Shown: piece by piece, positions 14,849 to 56,524 of the stretch | Numbering within the stretch: position 1 is the first letter of the stretch | Layout: each line of letters opens with the position of its first letter | From: Vulcanimicrobiota bacterium | GTDB taxonomy: Bacteria > Vulcanimicrobiota > Xenobia > Xenobiales > JADMJV01 | Assembly: GCA_019637395.1 (NCBI GenBank) | Contig: JAHBVR010000004.1 | Span: 1 to 64,000 of the forward strand | DNA length: 64,000 nt | Direction of reading: 5' to 3' | The notes under the pieces: generated by a model | Told to the model about the DNA's origin: nothing | Seen by the model: only the letters and a program-made list of their open reading frames with translations | Databases searched by the model: none | Made by a program: the position numbers and the translations under genes

Positions 14849-14893
14849 CCGAATCCCTTAACGCCCCCGCACCAGGATCCTTGCTCGGGCCCT

Positions 14894-15767
14894 ACCGGCC
14901 GGGTGGTAAATCTGGCCGCCAGGTGGTAATTCCGGCGGGCCCTCGGGCGCACTTGCCGACGGGGTGGTAAGTCTTACCGCCGGGTGGTAATTTCACGCGG
15001 GCCCTCGGGCGCACTTGCCGGCCGGATGGTAAGTTTTACCGCCAAGTGGTAATTTCCGGTGGGCCTCGGAGCCCACTTGCCGGCGGGTGGTAAGTCTTAC
15101 CGCTGGGTGGTAATTTCTGGTGGGCCTCGGGCTACTTGTCGGCCGGATGGTAAGTTTTACCGCCAAGTGGTAATTCCGGCGGGCCTCGGAGCCCACTTGC
15201 CGGCCTGGTGGTAAGTCTTACCGCCAGGTGGTAATTCCGGCGGGCCTCGGGCTACTTGTCGGCCGGATGGTAAGTTTTACCGCCGGGTGGTAATTCCGGC
15301 GGGCCTCGGGGGGCACTTGCCGGCCGGATGGTAAGTTTTACCGCCGGGTGGTCATTTCCGGCGGGCCTCGGGCTACTTGTCGGCCGGATGGTAAGTCTTA
15401 CCGCCGGGTGGTAATTCCGACGGGCCTCGGGCCCACTTGCCGGCCGGGCGGTAAGTTTTACTGCTGGGTGGTCATTTCCGGCGGGCCCTCGGGCGCACTT
15501 GCCGGCGGGGTGGTAAGTCTTACCGCCGGGCGGTAATTCCGGCGGGCCTCGGGCTACTTGTCGGCCGGAGTAAGTCTTACCGCCAGGTGGTAATTCCGGC
15601 GGGCCTCGGGGGGGCACTTGCCGGCCGGATGGTAAGTTTTACCGCTGGGTGGTAATTTCCGGCGGGCCTCGGGGGCACTTGCCGCCGGGTGGTAAGTCTT
15701 ACCGCTGGGTGGTAATTTCCGGCGGGCCCTCGGGGGCACTTGCCGCCGGGTGGTAAGTCTGGCCGTA
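14894..15767. repeat. Tandem array of fifteen ~60-bp palindrome-bearing repeats
   Basis: Copies anchored on GGTAA occur at 14905, 14966, 15028, 15089, 15149, 15210, 15269, 15330, 15390, 15450, 15512, about 15569, 15631, 15691 and 15752, with spacing 57-62 bp. Each unit holds the palindrome GGTAAGTYTTACC, then a second GGTGGTAA copy about 20 bp on, then a GC-rich CCGGCGGGCCTCGG segment and CACTTGCCGGCC. TTACC can pair with the GGTAA on either side, giving two mutually exclusive hairpins. Both end copies carry TCTGGCC where inner ones have TYTTACC. The array fills the gap between the anmK stop and the YkgJ-type gene. Variable unit length breaks every reading frame, so I see no gene in it. Confidence 0.95.
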
Positions 15768-15771
15768 ATTT

Positions 15772-16884
15772 TCAGGAGGGGAAGCTGATTTTGCCCAGCA
15801 CGGCGGGGCGGCGGGCTCCGGTTACGGTGGCGACGGAACTGGGGCGGCCATGCAGCGTTTCGTGGGCCATCAAGGCAAAGGCGCAGGCTTCGCGGGCGTC
15901 GGCGGTGATGCCGAATTCCTCGAACCCGATCAGGCGTTGCAGCGGCAAGCCGGCGGCCCGCTCGCGCAACTCCTGCATCAAGACCGGATTGTGGTAGCCG
16001 CCGCCGCCCACCACCATCTCGAACGAGCCGGTGAGCAGCGGTCGCAGCGAATTCAGCAGGGTTTCGGCCGTCAGGGCCAGCGCCGTGCGCATCAAGTCGG
16101 CCGGTTGTGCTTTCTCGAGATAGGGCTCGAAGAAGTCGCGGCCAAAGTCCTCGCGGCCGGTCGACTTGGGACCGGTGCCCGCGAAATAAGGGTGGCGCAA
16201 CATTTCACTCAGAATCTCCGGAACCACGCGGCCGGTCGCCGCCATCGCCCCCTCGAAGTCGGCCGGTTGTCCCAGAAAACGCTCGGCCAGCGCGTCGGAA
16301 ACCACATTGCCCGGGCCGCTGTCCCAACCGCGCACCTCCCCATTGCGTGGAACCCAACTGACGTTGGCCATGCCGCCGATGTTGATGGCCGCCCGATCGA
16401 CCGAGTCCGAGCGGAGCAGCCAGGCGTCGAAATAGGGGACCAGCGGAGCGGCCTGCCCGCCCAGGGCCAGGTCGGCGGTGCGAAAGTCGCTGACCACCAG
16501 TGCGCCGGTCCTGGCTGCAATCACAGCCGCCTCGCCGATTTGCAGTGTGGATGGGGGAGTCTCGTAGGGCAAATGGGCCACCGTTTGTCCGTGCGAGCCG
16601 ATCAAATCGACCTTTTCACCGTCGAGCAGCGCTAGCGCCACCTCGGCAAAGAGTTCGCCCACCAGAAAATGGGCCCGCGACAGCTGGCGCACGCTGGCCC
16701 GGTCCTCCATCAAGGCAAAGATGAGTTCGCGCGTCTCGGGCGGATAGGGGCGGCTGGCGAAGCGCAGCAGCCGCAGGGAGCGGCCTTCGATCTGCACCAG
16801 GGCGGCGTCGATAGCGTCGGCCGAGGTGCCGGAGATCATCCCCAGCACGCGGGGGGCGGTCAGTTGACGATAGCCGACGATCAC
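15772..16884 (-). CDS. anmK: Anhydro-N-acetylmuramic acid kinase
   Basis: 370 residues, the usual length, from a GTG that overlaps the menG stop (GTGA). Family motifs are clear: GMISGTSADAID at the phosphate-binding N-terminus, GSHGQTVAHLP, the INIGGMANVS strand, DSGPGN, and GGGGYHNP near residue 300. The enzyme phosphorylates and hydrolyses 1,6-anhydroMurNAc to MurNAc-6-phosphate in cytoplasmic peptidoglycan recycling. It is the last gene of the menaquinone operon although the pathway is unrelated. The repeat array begins immediately after its stop. Confidence 0.95.
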   Translation of the reverse strand: MIVGYRQLTAPRVLGMISGTSADAIDAALVQIEGRSLRLLRFASRPYPPETRELIFALMEDRASVRQLSRAHFLVGELFAEVALALLDGEKVDLIGSHGQTVAHLPYETPPSTLQIGEAAVIAARTGALVVSDFRTADLALGGQAAPLVPYFDAWLLRSDSVDRAAINIGGMANVSWVPRNGEVRGWDSGPGNVVSDALAERFLGQPADFEGAMAATGRVVPEILSEMLRHPYFAGTGPKSTGREDFGRDFFEPYLEKAQPADLMRTALALTAETLLNSLRPLLTGSFEMVVGGGGYHNPVLMQELRERAAGLPLQRLIGFEEFGITADAREACAFALMAHETLHGRPSSVATVTGARRPAVLGKISFPS

Positions 16885-17561
16885 GGAACCCTGGCCACGT
16901 GCACGGTCACGATGCCGAAGGTCAGCGGAATCGAGCGCACCTCGATCAGCCCGCCCTCGCGCATCGACTGGGTCAGCGCCTCGCGGTCCATAAAGTGGGC
17001 GATGGTCTTGCACAGGTAGTTGTAGGCCGAATTGTCGCCGGAAATCAGCCGTCCCAGAACGGGTAACAGGTAGCGCAGGTAGAGGCCGTGAAACCAGCCC
17101 AGCAATCCGTTGGGCCGAGTTAACTCCAGCGACATGATGCGCCCACCGGGCCGCACCAGCCGGCGCATCTCCCGCCACAGGGCCTGCAGATCGTGGATGT
17201 TGCGCGGCCCAAAAGCCAGCGCGGCTACATCAAAGGGGCCCTCCAGGGGGACCCGGGTGGCGTCACCCTGGAGAAACTCCAGGTGCGGGTATTTCTTGCG
17301 GGCCAAACTGAGCATGCCGGGTGCGAAGTCCACCCCCGTCACCCGGGCGCCCGCCCTGGCAAACTCTTGAGAGAGATCGCCGGTGCCGCAACAGAGATCC
17401 AGCACCCGCTCACCTTTTTGCACGCCCACCTCGCGCACGGCCCGGCGGCGCCACAAAAAATCCAGCCCGCCGCTCAAGACGTGATTGAGCAGGTCGTAGC
17501 GCGCGTGGATGCGGTCGAACATTTCCGCGATCCGAGACGGGGGCAAAGGGGGCTGGGTCAA
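16881..17561 (-). CDS. menG: Demethylmenaquinone methyltransferase (UbiE/MenG family)
   Basis: 226 residues. Begins with the family signature MFDRIHARYDLLNHVLSGGLDFLWRR split over residues 14-40, followed by the SAM-binding motif VLDLCCGTGDLS, then AFGPRNIHD and GDNSAYNYL near the C-terminus, all characteristic of UbiE/MenG. It methylates demethylmenaquinone as the last step of menaquinone synthesis. The start overlaps the mqnC stop by 4 bp and its stop overlaps the anmK start. In this operon a menaquinone rather than ubiquinone role is the better reading. Confidence 0.93.
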   Translation of the reverse strand: MTQPPLPPSRIAEMFDRIHARYDLLNHVLSGGLDFLWRRRAVREVGVQKGERVLDLCCGTGDLSQEFARAGARVTGVDFAPGMLSLARKKYPHLEFLQGDATRVPLEGPFDVAALAFGPRNIHDLQALWREMRRLVRPGGRIMSLELTRPNGLLGWFHGLYLRYLLPVLGRLISGDNSAYNYLCKTIAHFMDREALTQSMREGGLIEVRSIPLTFGIVTVHVARVP

Positions 17562-18598
17562 GCGGCGCTCAAGACTTCAAGTACGTTATAGCAACTGTCA
17601 CGCACCGCCGGCACCCGGCCTACGCTGCGGATCATCTGGGCGATCTGTTCGGCGTTGTAGGAATAGGCCACACCTGTGGCCGAGTTGACCAACTCTTCCA
17701 TGAGCACGCTGCCCAGGTCATCGGCGCCAAAGCTGAGAGCCAGTTGGGCCAGCTTGGCGCCCTCGGTTACCCAGCCGGCGTGGATGTGGTTGAAATTGTC
17801 CAGATACAGGCGGGCGATGGCCAGAATGCGCAGGTATTCGTGGCCGGCCGGCGGCACGGTGCGGGCCAGACCGGTGAAGTCGGGGGTCAGGCTCCAGTGG
17901 ATGAAGCTGCGGAAACCGCCGGTGCGATCCTGCAGCGCGCGCAGTCGCTCCAGATGCTGGATGCGCTGCTCATTGCTTTCCCCAAAGCCAAAGACCATGG
18001 TGGCGGTCGACTCCATCCCCAGTTTGTGGGCGATTTCGTGGACTTCGAACCAGCGGTCGGCGCTGGTCTTGAGGGGGGCCACTTTGGTGCGGATCTCGTC
18101 CACCAGCATTTCGGCGCCGCCGCCGGGCAGCGAATCCAGGCCGGCCTGCTTCAGGCGGCGCAGCGTTTCTTCCAGTTCCAGGCCGCTGTGCAGGGCCATC
18201 TGGTCCACTTCGGTGGCCGTCAGCGAATGCAGGTATACCTCGGGAAAACGAGCCTTCATGCTCGAGAACAGGTCTTCGTAGTAGTCGATTTTCAGATCAG
18301 GATTGTGGCCGCCCTGGAGCATCACGGTGGTGCCCTTGAACTTGAGCATCTCCTCTACTTTGCGGAAGATCTCGTCCTTGCTGCGCACGTAGGCTTCTTC
18401 GTGGCCGGGAGGGCGGTAGAAGGCGCAGAACTTGCAGTAGGTGATGCAAACATTGGTATAATTGATGATGCGGTCGCGCACGAAGGTGACCCGGTTGTCG
18501 GGAAAGCGGCGGCGCCGGTCCTGATCGGCCCGCTCGCCTAATTCTAAAAGATCCATGTCGAACAGAGCTAATCCTTGTTCGGGGGTCAGACGCTCCAT
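17558..18598 (-). CDS. mqnC: Cyclic dehypoxanthinyl futalosine synthase (radical SAM)
   Basis: 346 residues. The radical-SAM cluster motif is ITYCKFCAF within NYTNVCITYCKFC (CxxxCxxC). Other family marks are QGGHNPDL, SLPGGGAEML, FGFGESNEQRI and, near the C-terminus, LSFGADDLGSVLMEE. MqnC converts dehypoxanthine futalosine to its cyclic form in the futalosine route to menaquinone. GADDLGSV with VNSATG fits MqnC better than MqnE. It overlaps mqnA by 13 bp and menG by 4 bp. Confidence 0.95.
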   Translation of the reverse strand: MERLTPEQGLALFDMDLLELGERADQDRRRRFPDNRVTFVRDRIINYTNVCITYCKFCAFYRPPGHEEAYVRSKDEIFRKVEEMLKFKGTTVMLQGGHNPDLKIDYYEDLFSSMKARFPEVYLHSLTATEVDQMALHSGLELEETLRRLKQAGLDSLPGGGAEMLVDEIRTKVAPLKTSADRWFEVHEIAHKLGMESTATMVFGFGESNEQRIQHLERLRALQDRTGGFRSFIHWSLTPDFTGLARTVPPAGHEYLRILAIARLYLDNFNHIHAGWVTEGAKLAQLALSFGADDLGSVLMEELVNSATGVAYSYNAEQIAQMIRSVGRVPAVRDSCYNVLEVLSAA

Positions 18599-19359
18599 GC
18601 TTTTTCCTCCGCAAGCGATCCGGGCAATTTCACCAGGCCCTGCTCAGCCGCCAGTTTATAAAACAGATTCAACGATTTCAGTTCGGTCTCGCCCAGGTGG
18701 TAGCGCATACCGCTAAAGTAGCTTTCCAACGTGGCCGCATCCAGGCCGGTGCGCCGCATGGACTCCTGAATGACCTGATTCCAGTTTTGAGCGCCCCATT
18801 CGCGCGAGCGTTCCAGGTATTTCTCGGGCCCTTCCTCCAGAGTCCGCTTGCACAACCACACCGCAAAGACCATGGGGAAACCGGTTTTGTCTTTCCAGGC
18901 CTGGCCCAGGTCCAACTCATAGGGAGCCGGTGGGGCGGTCAGAGCCTGGTCGCCGATGAGCAGAACGGCCGGCTGTTTTTCTGACAAATGCGGTGTCTGT
19001 TCCAGGTCGATCACTTGAAGGCCGGGCACCAGCACTTGCAGCAGCGTGCGAGAGGTGGCCGAGGCCTTGGTTACCGCAACCGTACGCAGTTGCTCGATGG
19101 GCAGCAGAGAAAAAAGTTTGACGCTTTGGACCGCGGCCGGAGCGCTGAGGCCCACGCCCTGGACCACCCGGTAGAGTTGCCAGCAGCTCAAATATTCGAT
19201 GGAGGAGACGGCGGTGGCGTCCAGTTGGCCGGTGCGCGTCATGGCGTTGAGGGCGCTGGGCTCGGCTCGCACCAGCTCGCCTTGAAAGCCAACCTGATTG
19301 CGTTCCAGCCCCAGGGTGACGGGCAGAACGTTGATGTAGCTGATGCTACCGAGTCTCAT
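18586..19359 (-). CDS. mqnA: Chorismate dehydratase
   Basis: 257 residues starting MRLGSISYINVLP, the typical MqnA N-terminus (LGxxxYxNxxP). AVSSIEYL, LFSLLPIEQL and LLIGDQAL are further family motifs of this periplasmic-binding-protein-like fold. MqnA removes water from chorismate to give 3-[(1-carboxyvinyl)oxy]benzoate, the first step of the futalosine pathway. It overlaps the upstream radical-SAM-like gene by 14 bp and mqnC by 13 bp, so translation is probably coupled. Confidence 0.93.
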   Translation of the reverse strand: MRLGSISYINVLPVTLGLERNQVGFQGELVRAEPSALNAMTRTGQLDATAVSSIEYLSCWQLYRVVQGVGLSAPAAVQSVKLFSLLPIEQLRTVAVTKASATSRTLLQVLVPGLQVIDLEQTPHLSEKQPAVLLIGDQALTAPPAPYELDLGQAWKDKTGFPMVFAVWLCKRTLEEGPEKYLERSREWGAQNWNQVIQESMRRTGLDAATLESYFSGMRYHLGETELKSLNLFYKLAAEQGLVKLPGSLAEEKAWSV

Positions 19360-20137
19360 AAACTTCCATTCCGGCTTCCAGGACCCCCGCCCGGGCTTCG
19401 TCCCAGCCGATCAAATCGGCGGGACGCATCCGTCCCGAATAGGCCAATTGCTCTTCCAGCCCCCAACCCCCCAGCGCATCCGCGCCAAAAGCCAGCGAAC
19501 TCTGCGCCAGCTTGAATCCCAGCGCCCCCCAGGAAGCGCGCACCCATTGCACCGGCTCGGCCAGAGCCCGGGTGCGACTGAGGATCTCCACGTCTTGCGG
19601 GCCGTCGGTGGTGGCCCCGGGGATCACCACCAGGTCGCCCACCGCCCGCGGTAAGGGGACGATTTGTTCGGCGTCGCGCAGCGCGTCCAGGCGTTTTTCC
19701 AGGTCCTCGGGAGTGTGCTCGGGACCGTAGACAAAGCTGGCCACCATCGGCAATTTGAGAGCGGCGCACTGTTCCCAGCCCTGGGCCGCGCCCGTGCTCG
19801 CTCCCGTCAGTTCGCCGGTGAACCAGCAGAAACTATCGGGGCGAATTTTCTCGAGAACTTCAAAGCCGTGGCGTTGCAGCCAGCCCGGCGAGAGGCCATG
19901 CAGTTTGGCGCCGGGGAACCGGGCGCGCAACTGGTGCACGAGTTCGACCACCTGGTCGGGCGTTTCATCTTTGCGCGGATGAAAGTGGACTTCTGTGACC
20001 TTTCGCTCCAGTTTGCCCCAATCGGGTGTTGTCGGCACCAACTGGACGGCACCGTCGGCCCGCAGCCATACGCGCGCGTGGCGCCTGGCCCGCGCCCGCC
20101 GGCCTAACTCAAAAAGATTCATTTCAGCCACTTTCAC
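19346..20137 (-). CDS. MqnE/MqnC-like protein lacking the radical-SAM cluster
   Basis: 263 residues, against about 350-390 for MqnE. The N-terminus (NLFELGRRARARRHARVWL) matches the start of MqnE/MqnC proteins, but the CxxxCxxC segment is absent and VTEVHFHPRKD follows almost at once, where active enzymes read EVHIVGGLHP. The C-terminal barrel pattern returns: ASWGALGFKLAQSSLAFGADALGG, split here, closely follows the MqnE/MqnC tail. PGGGAE and the HxxG segments are not recognisable. I infer a cluster-less paralogue, retained between mqnP (ATGA overlap) and mqnA (14-bp overlap). It may be a scaffold or a partner of true MqnE/MqnC. A catalytic role different from radical SAM cannot be excluded. 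Confidence 0.75.
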   Translation of the reverse strand: MKVAEMNLFELGRRARARRHARVWLRADGAVQLVPTTPDWGKLERKVTEVHFHPRKDETPDQVVELVHQLRARFPGAKLHGLSPGWLQRHGFEVLEKIRPDSFCWFTGELTGASTGAAQGWEQCAALKLPMVASFVYGPEHTPEDLEKRLDALRDAEQIVPLPRAVGDLVVIPGATTDGPQDVEILSRTRALAEPVQWVRASWGALGFKLAQSSLAFGADALGGWGLEEQLAYSGRMRPADLIGWDEARAGVLEAGMEVYETR

Positions 20138-21012
20138 AAAACCAACTCCCAGAACAACGAAACGAGTAACGTCAGGCTGATTCCCACGTTTGCCTGAAAA
20201 AACGCCTTTTGCATCTGGCTTAAGTCCCCTGGTTGCAGAAGGCGGTGTTCATAAAAGAGCAGACCGGCGATCAGCCAGCAGCCCAGTGCGTAAATCCAGC
20301 CCAGCCCGGCCGTGGCTCCGACCATCCAGAGCGATAGCCAGGCCAGTAGATGTAAGCCTTCGGAGATGCGAAAGGCATTCTGGATACCGAAGCGGGCGGG
20401 GATGGAAAATAGACCGGCCTGGCGATCGTGAGCGAAATCCTGGCAGGCATAGAGCACGTCAAAGCCGGCCACCCAGGTGAAGATGACCAGGCCCAACCAG
20501 AGGGGCGTGGCTCCCCAATGGCCGCAGGCGGCCAGCCAGCCGCCGATGGGCGCGCAGGCCTGCACCAGGCCTAACCAGAGGTGGCACAGCCAGGTAAAAC
20601 GCTTGGTATAGCTATAGCCGAGCAAAAGCAGGGCGGCCAGGGGCCAGAGTCTGTAGCAAAGCGGATTGAGCTGGTGAGCGGCCAGTGCCAACAGGGCCAG
20701 GCTGGCCAGCATTAAGAGGGCCACCGAGCCTCCCCGAACCTGACCGGCCGGCAGGGCGCGGCCGGCCGTACGCGGATTGGCCGCGTCGATTTTCCAGTCG
20801 ATCAAGCGATTGGCGGCCATGCCGGCGGTGCGCGCTCCGAACATGGCCAGCGTCACCCAGAAACAGGTGGCCAGTGGGGGCAGACCGCGCTGCCCCAACA
20901 TCATACCCGCGTAGGCAAAGGGCAGCGCGAAGAGGGTCTGTTCAAAGCGGACCAGTTCCAGAAAGAGCCGCAGCCGGCCCGGCCTGTCGATATCGGTGGT
21001 GGTGGCAACCAT
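20134..21012 (-). CDS. mqnP: UbiA-family prenyltransferase, probably MqnP
   Basis: 292 residues with eight or nine membrane segments. The first Asp-rich motif is NRLIDWKIDAANPRT and the second is DVLYACQDFAHDR, both typical of UbiA enzymes that attach a polyprenyl chain to an aromatic acid. In futalosine-pathway bacteria the prenyltransferase for 1,4-dihydroxy-6-naphthoate is MqnP, and its place at the head of the mqn operon supports that. The start is ATG 21012 and the stop overlaps the next gene by ATGA. MqnB, MqnD and a true MqnE are not in the window. Confidence 0.9.
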   Translation of the reverse strand: MVATTTDIDRPGRLRLFLELVRFEQTLFALPFAYAGMMLGQRGLPPLATCFWVTLAMFGARTAGMAANRLIDWKIDAANPRTAGRALPAGQVRGGSVALLMLASLALLALAAHQLNPLCYRLWPLAALLLLGYSYTKRFTWLCHLWLGLVQACAPIGGWLAACGHWGATPLWLGLVIFTWVAGFDVLYACQDFAHDRQAGLFSIPARFGIQNAFRISEGLHLLAWLSLWMVGATAGLGWIYALGCWLIAGLLFYEHRLLQPGDLSQMQKAFFQANVGISLTLLVSLFWELVL

Positions 21013-54109: not shown

Positions 54110-56524
54110 CTAGTCTTCCAGCAAGAACTCGTTCCACATCCGCTGGATGCGCATGCGCGCGGCGGTGATGCCGGTACCGTGTTCGAACAGATCGTTGAGG
54201 CCTTCCTGGACTTCTTCCAGCAACTCCGGTTGGAAGAGGAGTTCTTCCCGCAAGCAGCCGTAGGTTGCGGCCGTGATGCCGACCAGGCGGGCGGCGGCGT
54301 GGTCGGCCACGGGATCGAGGCGCTTGAGGAATACCTCGTCGCGGAAAGCGAATTCACGGGCGTAAAGGAAGCCCACCCAGTCGGTGGCCTGATACCAGTG
54401 CAATAAGAGCGTGCGGCACTCGTCTTCGAATTCGGGAGCCTGGTGGTTCAGGGCCTGGAGCCGATCCATCAGGCTGGGGTGAGGCACGGAACCTTCCTCC
54501 AGGTAAAGTTCCACGGCCGCCTGGGCCAACTGCAGGCGCTGAGCGTCATTGAGGGCGCTGGATTGATGGGCCAGCTGGCTGTGGCCGCGATACATCCTGA
54601 CCAGGTGGCGGAAGACCAGGAAGCACAGTTCTTCAGGCGGCATTCCTTCGATATCGCGGTGGAAGATCAGGGTTAGTTCCGGCTCCGCGCTGGCGTCGAC
54701 CAGGAACAGATCATCGCCATCGTAAGTCAGCACCTTGAGTTCGGGGAAGTCAAAGAGGGTATAGTCCACCGCTCTCAAGGCCTGGCGCAGGGTGCCCACG
54801 AAAGCGGCCGGGCCGGTGTTCTCCAGTCTCTGCTCGAATTGCTCCGAGGGGATCGGTAGCTTCAGGCCTGCTTTGGGTAGCAGGTTGTCGCGCAGGAAGG
54901 TGACGACTTCCTCTTCCTCCTCGTTGCCCAGATGCGAGACGAAATCGCGGTTGAGGCCTCGCTTGCCCATGCCGATGGCAAGTTCTTGCTTTTGCACTTC
55001 GGCCCGCGGGGAGCTACCGAACTGATAAAACAGGGCCAGGCGGTCGGGGGCATTGCCCGTGGCGGTAGACTCGGCCGAAGACAGGATTTCGAAAAGATAG
55101 ACCATCTCCACGCCGGGAAGGGCTTCGGTCAGGTAGGGTACGATGTCTTCTTGGCCGGCCTTGAGGCGGGCCAGGGCCAGGTTGGCCTTGGCTTCGTTTT
55201 CCACCCAGGTTTCAACTTCCAGCGCCTGCTCCAGCACTTCGCCGGCCAGATCGGGCTGGCTGCTGACCAGTTGAAGGCCTTCGCTGATCTGGTCGAACTT
55301 GGCTTTGGCCGCGGCCGGGGACCAATCCGCGCCTGCTTCGACCACCAGTTCTTCGAGCGCCGGTTCCTCGGCGATGGGCTCTTCAGCCACGGGCTCCTCG
55401 GCGACCGGTTCCTCGGCGATGGGCTCTTCAGCCACGGGCTCCTCGGCGACCGGCTCCTCGGCGGTGGGCTCTTCAGCCACGGGCTCCTCGACGGCCGGCT
55501 CCTCGGCGATGGGCTCTTCGGCCACGGGCTCTTCGTCGACCGCTTCCTCAGCGATGGGCTCCTCGACGACCGCTTCCTCAGCGATGGGTTCCTCGTGGGT
55601 TTGCGATAGCTCATCTTCAAGGCTCAGGCCGAGGCTGCCCATGGTGGAGGCCAGCTCGGAATCCGCCTCCAACCGCGAGGACAGATCCGGCGTCGGGGCG
55701 GGATCCGCCGGCCTGGCTGGCGGAGCGTCGCCGGACACCTGTTCCCAGGCTTGAGCCAGAGCGCTCTTGAGGCTGGCCTGGTCTTGCTCTTCGCTGAAGA
55801 GCTGGCCGCCGGTGTCCTGTAGCGTATCGAACAGTTCTTCCAGCTTCTGGATGTCCGAACTGGCGTGGGGCAGTTCCATCAACTCATAGACCTGGTCGAC
55901 CAGCGTGCGACCCGGAATTCCCAGGGCTAAGTCCAGGTGGGACATGAGGATTTCGTAGGCGCTGCCGGGAGCGGTGCTGGTGGGCACGGCCGTAAAGTCG
56001 TCGCCGCTGAGAAACTGCTCTTTGAAGTCGTGAACCAGTTGCTCGAGCTTGGCGATGCGCCCTTCGCGAGTGGTCAGCTCTTCTTGCAACTCGCTCATGT
56101 TTTGCTGGCGCCGTGCCAGTTCGTCCTTCTGGCGCTCCAACTCGGCTTCGTGGCTGACCACCCGCTCGCGGCTCTGGGTCAGTTCGCCCTGGAGCTCTTC
56201 CACCGAGTGGTCAAGACGCTGGCCGCGAGCCAGAGCGTCGGAGAGTTCGGCTTCCAGTTTTTGCTTTTCTTGACTGGCGCGCTCCAGCGTTTCGGCCATT
56301 TCCTGTTGCAGTTTCTTCAGTTGCTGATCCAACTGGCGATTTTTAAAGGCTAACTGCACGCCTTCGCCGGTCAGACGTTTGACTTCTTCGGTCAGACGCT
56401 TGTTGGTGGAGCGTAATTCTTTGATCTGCTCGAAAGCTTTTAGATCCGGTTCGCCTAATTGGGCCTTGAGGTTGGCATTTTCTTCTTGTAATTGAGCCAG
56501 TTGCGCTTGAGAGTCAGCCGACAT
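54110..56524 (-). CDS. Coiled-coil protein with EEPxAEEP acidic repeat and helical C-terminal domain
   Basis: 804 residues from ATG 56524 (GGAG upstream). Residues about 1-175 are a long coiled coil (LQEENANLKAQLGE, EKQKLEAELSDA). Residues about 310-400 consist of a degenerate Glu-Pro-(Val/Ile)-Ala-Glu-Glu repeat, roughly 15-18 copies. The C-terminal ~370 residues are a helical domain of unknown family; its segment ELCFLVFRHLVRMYRGH follows the pattern of an M48-type peptidase helix but lacks the HExxH. No signal or membrane segment. Divergent from the gene at 56621, with which it likely shares regulation. Possibly a cytoskeletal or scaffold protein. Confidence 0.8.
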   Translation of the reverse strand: MSADSQAQLAQLQEENANLKAQLGEPDLKAFEQIKELRSTNKRLTEEVKRLTGEGVQLAFKNRQLDQQLKKLQQEMAETLERASQEKQKLEAELSDALARGQRLDHSVEELQGELTQSRERVVSHEAELERQKDELARRQQNMSELQEELTTREGRIAKLEQLVHDFKEQFLSGDDFTAVPTSTAPGSAYEILMSHLDLALGIPGRTLVDQVYELMELPHASSDIQKLEELFDTLQDTGGQLFSEEQDQASLKSALAQAWEQVSGDAPPARPADPAPTPDLSSRLEADSELASTMGSLGLSLEDELSQTHEEPIAEEAVVEEPIAEEAVDEEPVAEEPIAEEPAVEEPVAEEPTAEEPVAEEPVAEEPIAEEPVAEEPVAEEPIAEEPALEELVVEAGADWSPAAAKAKFDQISEGLQLVSSQPDLAGEVLEQALEVETWVENEAKANLALARLKAGQEDIVPYLTEALPGVEMVYLFEILSSAESTATGNAPDRLALFYQFGSSPRAEVQKQELAIGMGKRGLNRDFVSHLGNEEEEEVVTFLRDNLLPKAGLKLPIPSEQFEQRLENTGPAAFVGTLRQALRAVDYTLFDFPELKVLTYDGDDLFLVDASAEPELTLIFHRDIEGMPPEELCFLVFRHLVRMYRGHSQLAHQSSALNDAQRLQLAQAAVELYLEEGSVPHPSLMDRLQALNHQAPEFEDECRTLLLHWYQATDWVGFLYAREFAFRDEVFLKRLDPVADHAAARLVGITAATYGCLREELLFQPELLEEVQEGLNDLFEHGTGITAARMRIQRMWNEFLLED
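55360..55605. repeat. In-gene repeat coding the EEPxAEEP acidic tract
   Basis: Degenerate 15-18 bp units (GGCTCCTCGGCGAYSG, GGCTCTTCAGCCAYGG on the plus strand) repeated about 16 times, encoding the acidic Glu-Glu-Pro-Val/Ile-Ala tract of the coiled-coil protein. Units keep the reading frame, so length variation between strains would not break the gene. Confidence 0.85.

Follow-up and report, generated by a model that had tools for sequence, protein, structure and literature searches.

A candidate cluster-less pseudoenzyme, probably derived from MqnE, in the menaquinone operon of one Eremiobacterota lineage

What is the gene that stands between mqnP and mqnA in the menaquinone operon of this bacterium? 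The window (the whole 64,000-nt stretch of DNA analysed here) carries on its minus strand the gene order mqnP-X-mqnA-mqnC-menG-anmK, where X denotes the gene in question (Table 1). A first-pass annotation had read X as a relative of MqnE (aminofutalosine synthase) and MqnC (cyclic dehypoxanthinyl futalosine synthase) that had lost the CxxxCxxC motif and was kept by selection, and had suggested a scaffold, a regulatory partner or a non-radical catalyst as its possible role.

As shown by ORF analysis of the window, the 263-residue frame of X is free of internal stops. At its start the minus strand reads ...GGGAGTTGGTTTTGTGAAAGTG..., in which the GTGA start shares 4 bp with the mqnP stop, and GGGAG precedes the start upstream. 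The mqnA ATG lies inside the last codons of X, and the two genes overlap by 14 bp. Both the intact frame and the coupling to both neighbours were as first described. The overlaps of X with both mqnP and mqnA make its translation together with MqnP, MqnA and MqnC probable. Rfam and promoter scans of the operon found nothing. Directly downstream of anmK, window positions 14884–15760 hold an array in which a 61-bp unit with palindromic cores GGTAAGTCTTACC recurs about 14 times; lengths of 120 and 241 bp were seen for the unit as well. A coding-like 15/45-bp tandem repeat lies at window positions 55360–55595.

Table 1. Positions of X, its operon neighbours and the related Y genes.
Feature	Position	Strand	Evidence
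mqnP, prenyltransferase gene that opens the operon	20134..21012	-	NF041586 MqnP_DT 353 bits (below the 430 cut-off); above TIGR01475 cut-off; UbiA 176 bits
X (263 aa), candidate pseudoenzyme without cluster, probably from MqnE	19346..20137	-	GTG start; intact ORF; Foldseek; purifying selection; conserved in 10 genomes
X residues 28-43, low-confidence loop in place of MqnE CxxxCxxC loop and helix 1	20009..20056	-	AF2 pLDDT <50 at 28-44; alignment
X residues 200-227, invariant RASWxAxGxKxAQ...G...GW block (strands 7-8)	19457..19540	-	Positions invariant in 10/10; weak PF19288 match in 7/10
mqnA, chorismate dehydratase	18586..19359	-	PF02621 189 bits; overlap read from sequence
mqnC, intact radical-SAM cyclic dehypoxanthinyl futalosine synthase (CITYCKFC)	17558..18598	-	TIGR03699 455 bits, above the 428.1 cut-off
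Presumed menG/ubiE-type methyltransferase (named from established family knowledge)	16881..17561	-	ORF; conserved syntenic partner
anmK, end of the conserved run	15772..16881	-	PF03702 332 bits; synteny
Y proteins, mqnE slot of sister family f4	L047:1-1020, L048:5418-6596, L052:3118-4278		

Family profile HMMs matched X at its C-terminal part alone, where the first-pass annotation had seen an MqnE/MqnC tail: TIGR00423 gave 25.5 bits over residues 177–234. The MqnC model (TIGR03699) gave 24.8 bits and the MqnE model (TIGR03700) 19.5 bits, against cut-offs of 428.1 and 434.55, and all three scores lie far under the curated thresholds. PF19288 (CofH_C) matched seven of ten X proteins weakly (E up to 0.1, best 5.8e-6), and the X of the window scored 14.8 against it, under the gathering score of 27. 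The Radical_SAM Pfam domain PF04055 was matched by none of the ten at E 0.1, a direct search of the PDB with the X sequence returned chance matches only, and neither Pfam nor NCBIfam holds a curated family for X.

Profile alignment and structure comparison gave a clearer answer. Alignment of X with in-operon MqnE by hhalign gave an E value of 1.4e-15 across 202–219 columns. AlphaFold (AF2) models of moderate confidence were obtained for the X of the window (pLDDT 75.9, pTM 0.81) and for a second member about 35% identical to it (pLDDT 79.9, pTM 0.85). With both models, the first four Foldseek matches in the PDB were MqnE chains (6xig/6xi9; TMq 0.63–0.68), and with the second model ranks 5 to 14 were all radical-SAM barrels (HydE, BioB, ThiH, PylB). 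The sole viral-library match below 0.001 was likewise a protein annotated as aminodeoxyfutalosine synthase. The two approaches agree with the MqnE/MqnC-like identity first proposed, and the homology of X to the MqnE family is real; a mere likeness between barrels was rejected on the same evidence. The first-pass view that the first ~80 residues had largely gone is inaccurate. In both divergent members the eight strands of the barrel are all predicted to be kept, and what is lost relative to MqnE is dispersed over the cluster loop with helix 1, helices 3 and 4 and the turn ahead of beta-6. As modelled, the barrel of X is miniaturised, not truncated.

Within window positions 19300–20399, no CxxxCxxC motif occurs in any of the six frames and tblastn gave no credible match to the MqnE N-terminal region. 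The three cluster cysteines are gone from all ten X proteins, so that the absence reported for the window extends to the family. A frameshift hiding the cluster segment was rejected, given the empty six frames and the identical loss in ten genomes. The motifs GGGAE, HxVGG and FHP and other invariant positions of MqnE are not conserved in X, which keeps 22 of 85 such columns in the alignment. Radical-SAM chemistry needs a [4Fe-4S] cluster, and as X is without the cluster ligands of its family, this chemistry is excluded for it.

X was found in 10 of the 15 genomes of its order, and in 10 of the 10 where the mqnP-mqnA region was found. Of the remaining five, G011 (assembly 85% complete) yielded neither mqnC nor X, and four gave no MqnE/MqnC match at all. 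The order mqnP-X-mqnA-mqnC-menG is common to the window and G001, G003-G006, G010, G012 and G013, and a contig of G002 holds mqnP-X-mqnA. The search for the same gene beside mqnA and mqnP in relatives, which the first-pass annotation had proposed as a check, therefore found it at that place in ten genomes. In a contig scan, the named genomes with X were of Eremiobacterota/UBP9 type only, bar one contig labelled Burkholderiales. That contig, JAAZKF010000342.1, carries X and an Eremiobacterota-type operon, and its label is probably wrong.

Elsewhere in the phylum the slot of X is occupied by a full MqnE (G018, G019 and G022). MqnE adjoins mqnA and mqnC in G025 and G027. In many genomes of f12, a large family, about 1.9 kb separates the MqnE match from the MqnC match, the distance expected for mqnE-mqnA-mqnC. 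Sister family f4 (G015-G017) has a half-degenerate protein, here called Y, in this slot. All three Y proteins score best against the MqnE HMM, at 119–158 bits (cut-off 434.55), and keep 40 of the 85 MqnE-invariant positions. Y has three cysteines, with broken spacing in one of three proteins (CAPSSSCRVC, C-x5-C-x2-C), and has lost GGGAE and other motifs; it possibly still binds a cluster.

An intact MqnE above the TIGR03700 cut-off was found unlinked to the operon in all ten X genomes, in all three Y genomes and also in G011, and genomes with MqnE in the slot had one MqnE only (in those checked). The intact copy of the genome of the window lies at 193.8 kb of its contig C1, and X as a stand-in for a missing MqnE was rejected on this ground. 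The presence of an apparently working copy elsewhere also calls for caution before the operon gene of genomes with X or Y is labelled MqnE. Together with strong selection, it suggests that X is a remnant now in a non-catalytic or new job.

The dN/dS of X was 0.07–0.19 between pairs among five genomes of the genus and overlapped those of mqnP (0.05–0.12), mqnA (0.05–0.15) and menG (0.07–0.13) in the same genomes, mqnC being tighter (0.015–0.08); these are NG86 estimates with partly saturated synonymous sites. X is kept by purifying selection. The claim of selection, not decay, is thus borne out by these values and by the same placement in ten genomes.

Between families X is 35–44% identical, and 32 residues are invariant across the ten genomes of three families. 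The RASWxAxGxKxAQ...G...GW block is the counterpart of KAxWxxxGxKxAQ...FGADDxGG in MqnE. The invariant Y137-G-P139, L162-P163, R200-A-S-W203 and G224-W225 lie at the C-terminal ends of predicted strands 5 to 8, and several of these strand-end residues are new relative to MqnE. R190, W203 and E229 occupy ancestral MqnE positions. Nine columns carry derived residues common to X and Y, among them R200, P163 and P139; the position of R200 is K in 43 of 43 MqnE proteins. Such remodelling of the predicted barrel mouth, common to X and Y, argues for altered function, not decay.

From which enzyme did X descend? The unlinked MqnE proteins are monophyletic (support 100/99), with Y genomes beside X genomes within the clade, as is expected if one ancestral event supplied the second MqnE; the in-slot MqnE set of this tree includes G020, the slot of which was assumed. 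X and Y together are set apart from all else by a branch with support of 99/97, but as both are long branches, part of their joining may be an artefact. The best tree groups them with MqnC/CofH at support of 47/6, and the held-together tests gave p-AU of 0.15–0.31. Trees alone do not place X on MqnE versus MqnC. Alternatively, a duplicated copy of mqnC (or of CofH) could have taken the place of mqnE in the slot and given rise to X. This would fit that unsupported grouping and the bit scores of the X of the window, which are slightly higher for MqnC than for MqnE. The X profile ranked Y (136) above in-slot MqnE (112), MqnC (103) and unlinked MqnE (65), and the nearly equal 112 and 103 are the main caution on an MqnE origin. 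We nevertheless consider the mqnC origin improbable, since across the phylum the slot is that of mqnE, Y scores best to MqnE in three of three cases, and in-slot MqnE is both the best tblastn query (3.7e-15) and the first found in the search of relatives. For these reasons descent of X and Y from MqnE is favoured, and it is fairly well supported. Most likely, X descends from the original operon MqnE, which would have been displaced by the unlinked copy and kept as a pseudoenzyme. In the ancestor of this Eremiobacterota class, the unlinked intact MqnE would have taken over catalysis. The operon copy would then have lost its substrate and SAM motifs with the cysteines retained (the state of Y), followed by the [4Fe-4S] ligands and several helices (the state of X), while the eight-stranded barrel was kept and its mouth remodelled. 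We infer this order of events, as we do descent from MqnE rather than MqnC.

The rest of the pathway bears on what X may do, and candidate genes exist for most of its other steps. In the genome of the window, an MqnD-like gene on contig C19 was assigned from an N-terminal motif and a PF02621 match, and genes of the UbiD and UbiX types are present. A second MqnD-like PF02621 protein is encoded at C35:169012-169785 (-) (L059). No futalosine hydrolase above the curated cut-off was found in this genome or in most phylum genomes searched; locally, an HpnG-like phosphorylase at 220 kb of contig C8 (L163) is the best candidate. X as the missing futalosine hydrolase was not supported, as the gap does not track X.

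X is an enzyme homologue without catalytic ligands, is under purifying selection and has a live paralogue in the same genome, as is characteristic of a pseudoenzyme. That it is a slowly decaying relic without function, held open for translational coupling from mqnP through X to mqnA, would fit the extensive loss of catalytic motifs, the shrinking length, the fast divergence of families and the tight overlaps. Coupling, however, requires an open frame and no particular sequence, whereas the dN/dS values and the invariant residues show constraint, and a compact eight-strand fold is predicted for two divergent members; we regard a relic as very unlikely. Sites of TIM barrels lie at the C-terminal strand ends, and it is there that many of the invariants of X are found (Y137, P139, P163, R200-S202-W203, G224-W225), several of them new compared with MqnE. 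X may have been re-purposed as a non-radical enzyme or binding protein, its barrel mouth taking up an intermediate of the futalosine pathway, either an aromatic carboxylate or a nucleoside, for a side step or a hand-over, and one step, that of futalosine hydrolase, is without a clear gene in the genome of the window. Against this, the genome has mqnA, mqnE, mqnC, the MqnD-like gene, mqnP and genes of the UbiD and UbiX types, the hydrolase gap also occurs where MqnE is ordinary (G019, G020 and G022), and R190, W203 and E229 are simply ancestral. Re-purposing is a tentative reading, less probable than a partner role, yet the conserved strand-end residues, as placed in the models, could equally serve ligand binding or catalysis.

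The function that we judge most likely, by analogy, is that of a non-catalytic partner of MqnE/MqnC. Made in step with MqnP, MqnA and MqnC, X would bind the unlinked MqnE and/or MqnC and activate, stabilise or position it. This role is favoured because dead paralogues beside live ones have precedent and because X overlaps mqnP and mqnA; as the unlinked MqnE lies outside the operon, co-expression of X with it is not implied. We give the combined reading, descent from the operon MqnE and a prozyme-like partner role, a probability of about 0.5. Taken more broadly, we lean slightly towards the view that MqnE, Y and X form a series in which a radical-SAM enzyme was converted to a barrel without a cluster but with a new conserved pocket. 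In menaquinone synthesis this barrel would be either an obligatory partner subunit for MqnE/MqnC or a catalyst or carrier that uses no radical.

It is by the cluster motif that radical-SAM proteins are normally identified, so that a descendant under selection but free of the cluster can easily escape notice. The first-pass annotation knew no described family member of this kind, and besides the lack of a Pfam or NCBIfam entry, no evident case of a radical-SAM pseudoenzyme like X appeared in titles and abstracts of the open-access literature, the coverage of which is incomplete. Little open-access literature was found on MqnE structure or on menaquinone in Eremiobacterota. Because related lineages have intact, half-degenerate and cluster-less forms in one and the same slot, the change from a radical enzyme to a non-radical protein becomes traceable and testable here.

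X resembles MqnE (TIGR03700; 6xi9, 6xig) in its predicted barrel fold, its C-terminal KAxW/GxKxAQ/FGAD block and its operon slot. Unlike MqnE, it is without CxxxCxxC, has 63 of the 85 invariant MqnE positions changed and is about 90 residues shorter. With MqnC (TIGR03699), the next gene but one, it has a homologous barrel and C-terminal region in common, but the MqnC of the same operon is intact whereas X is without cluster and motifs. A dead paralogue helps a live one in the AdoMetDC prozyme (PMC5201418) and in DHS (PMC3663545) of trypanosomatids, and in PDX1.2 of plant vitamin B6 synthesis (PMC5897740, PMC6829848). X is like these in that a dead paralogue has been kept alongside a live one of its pathway. 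The prozymes and PDX1.2 have a demonstrated effect on the live paralogue, whereas X is a bacterial relative of radical-SAM enzymes known from sequence and models.
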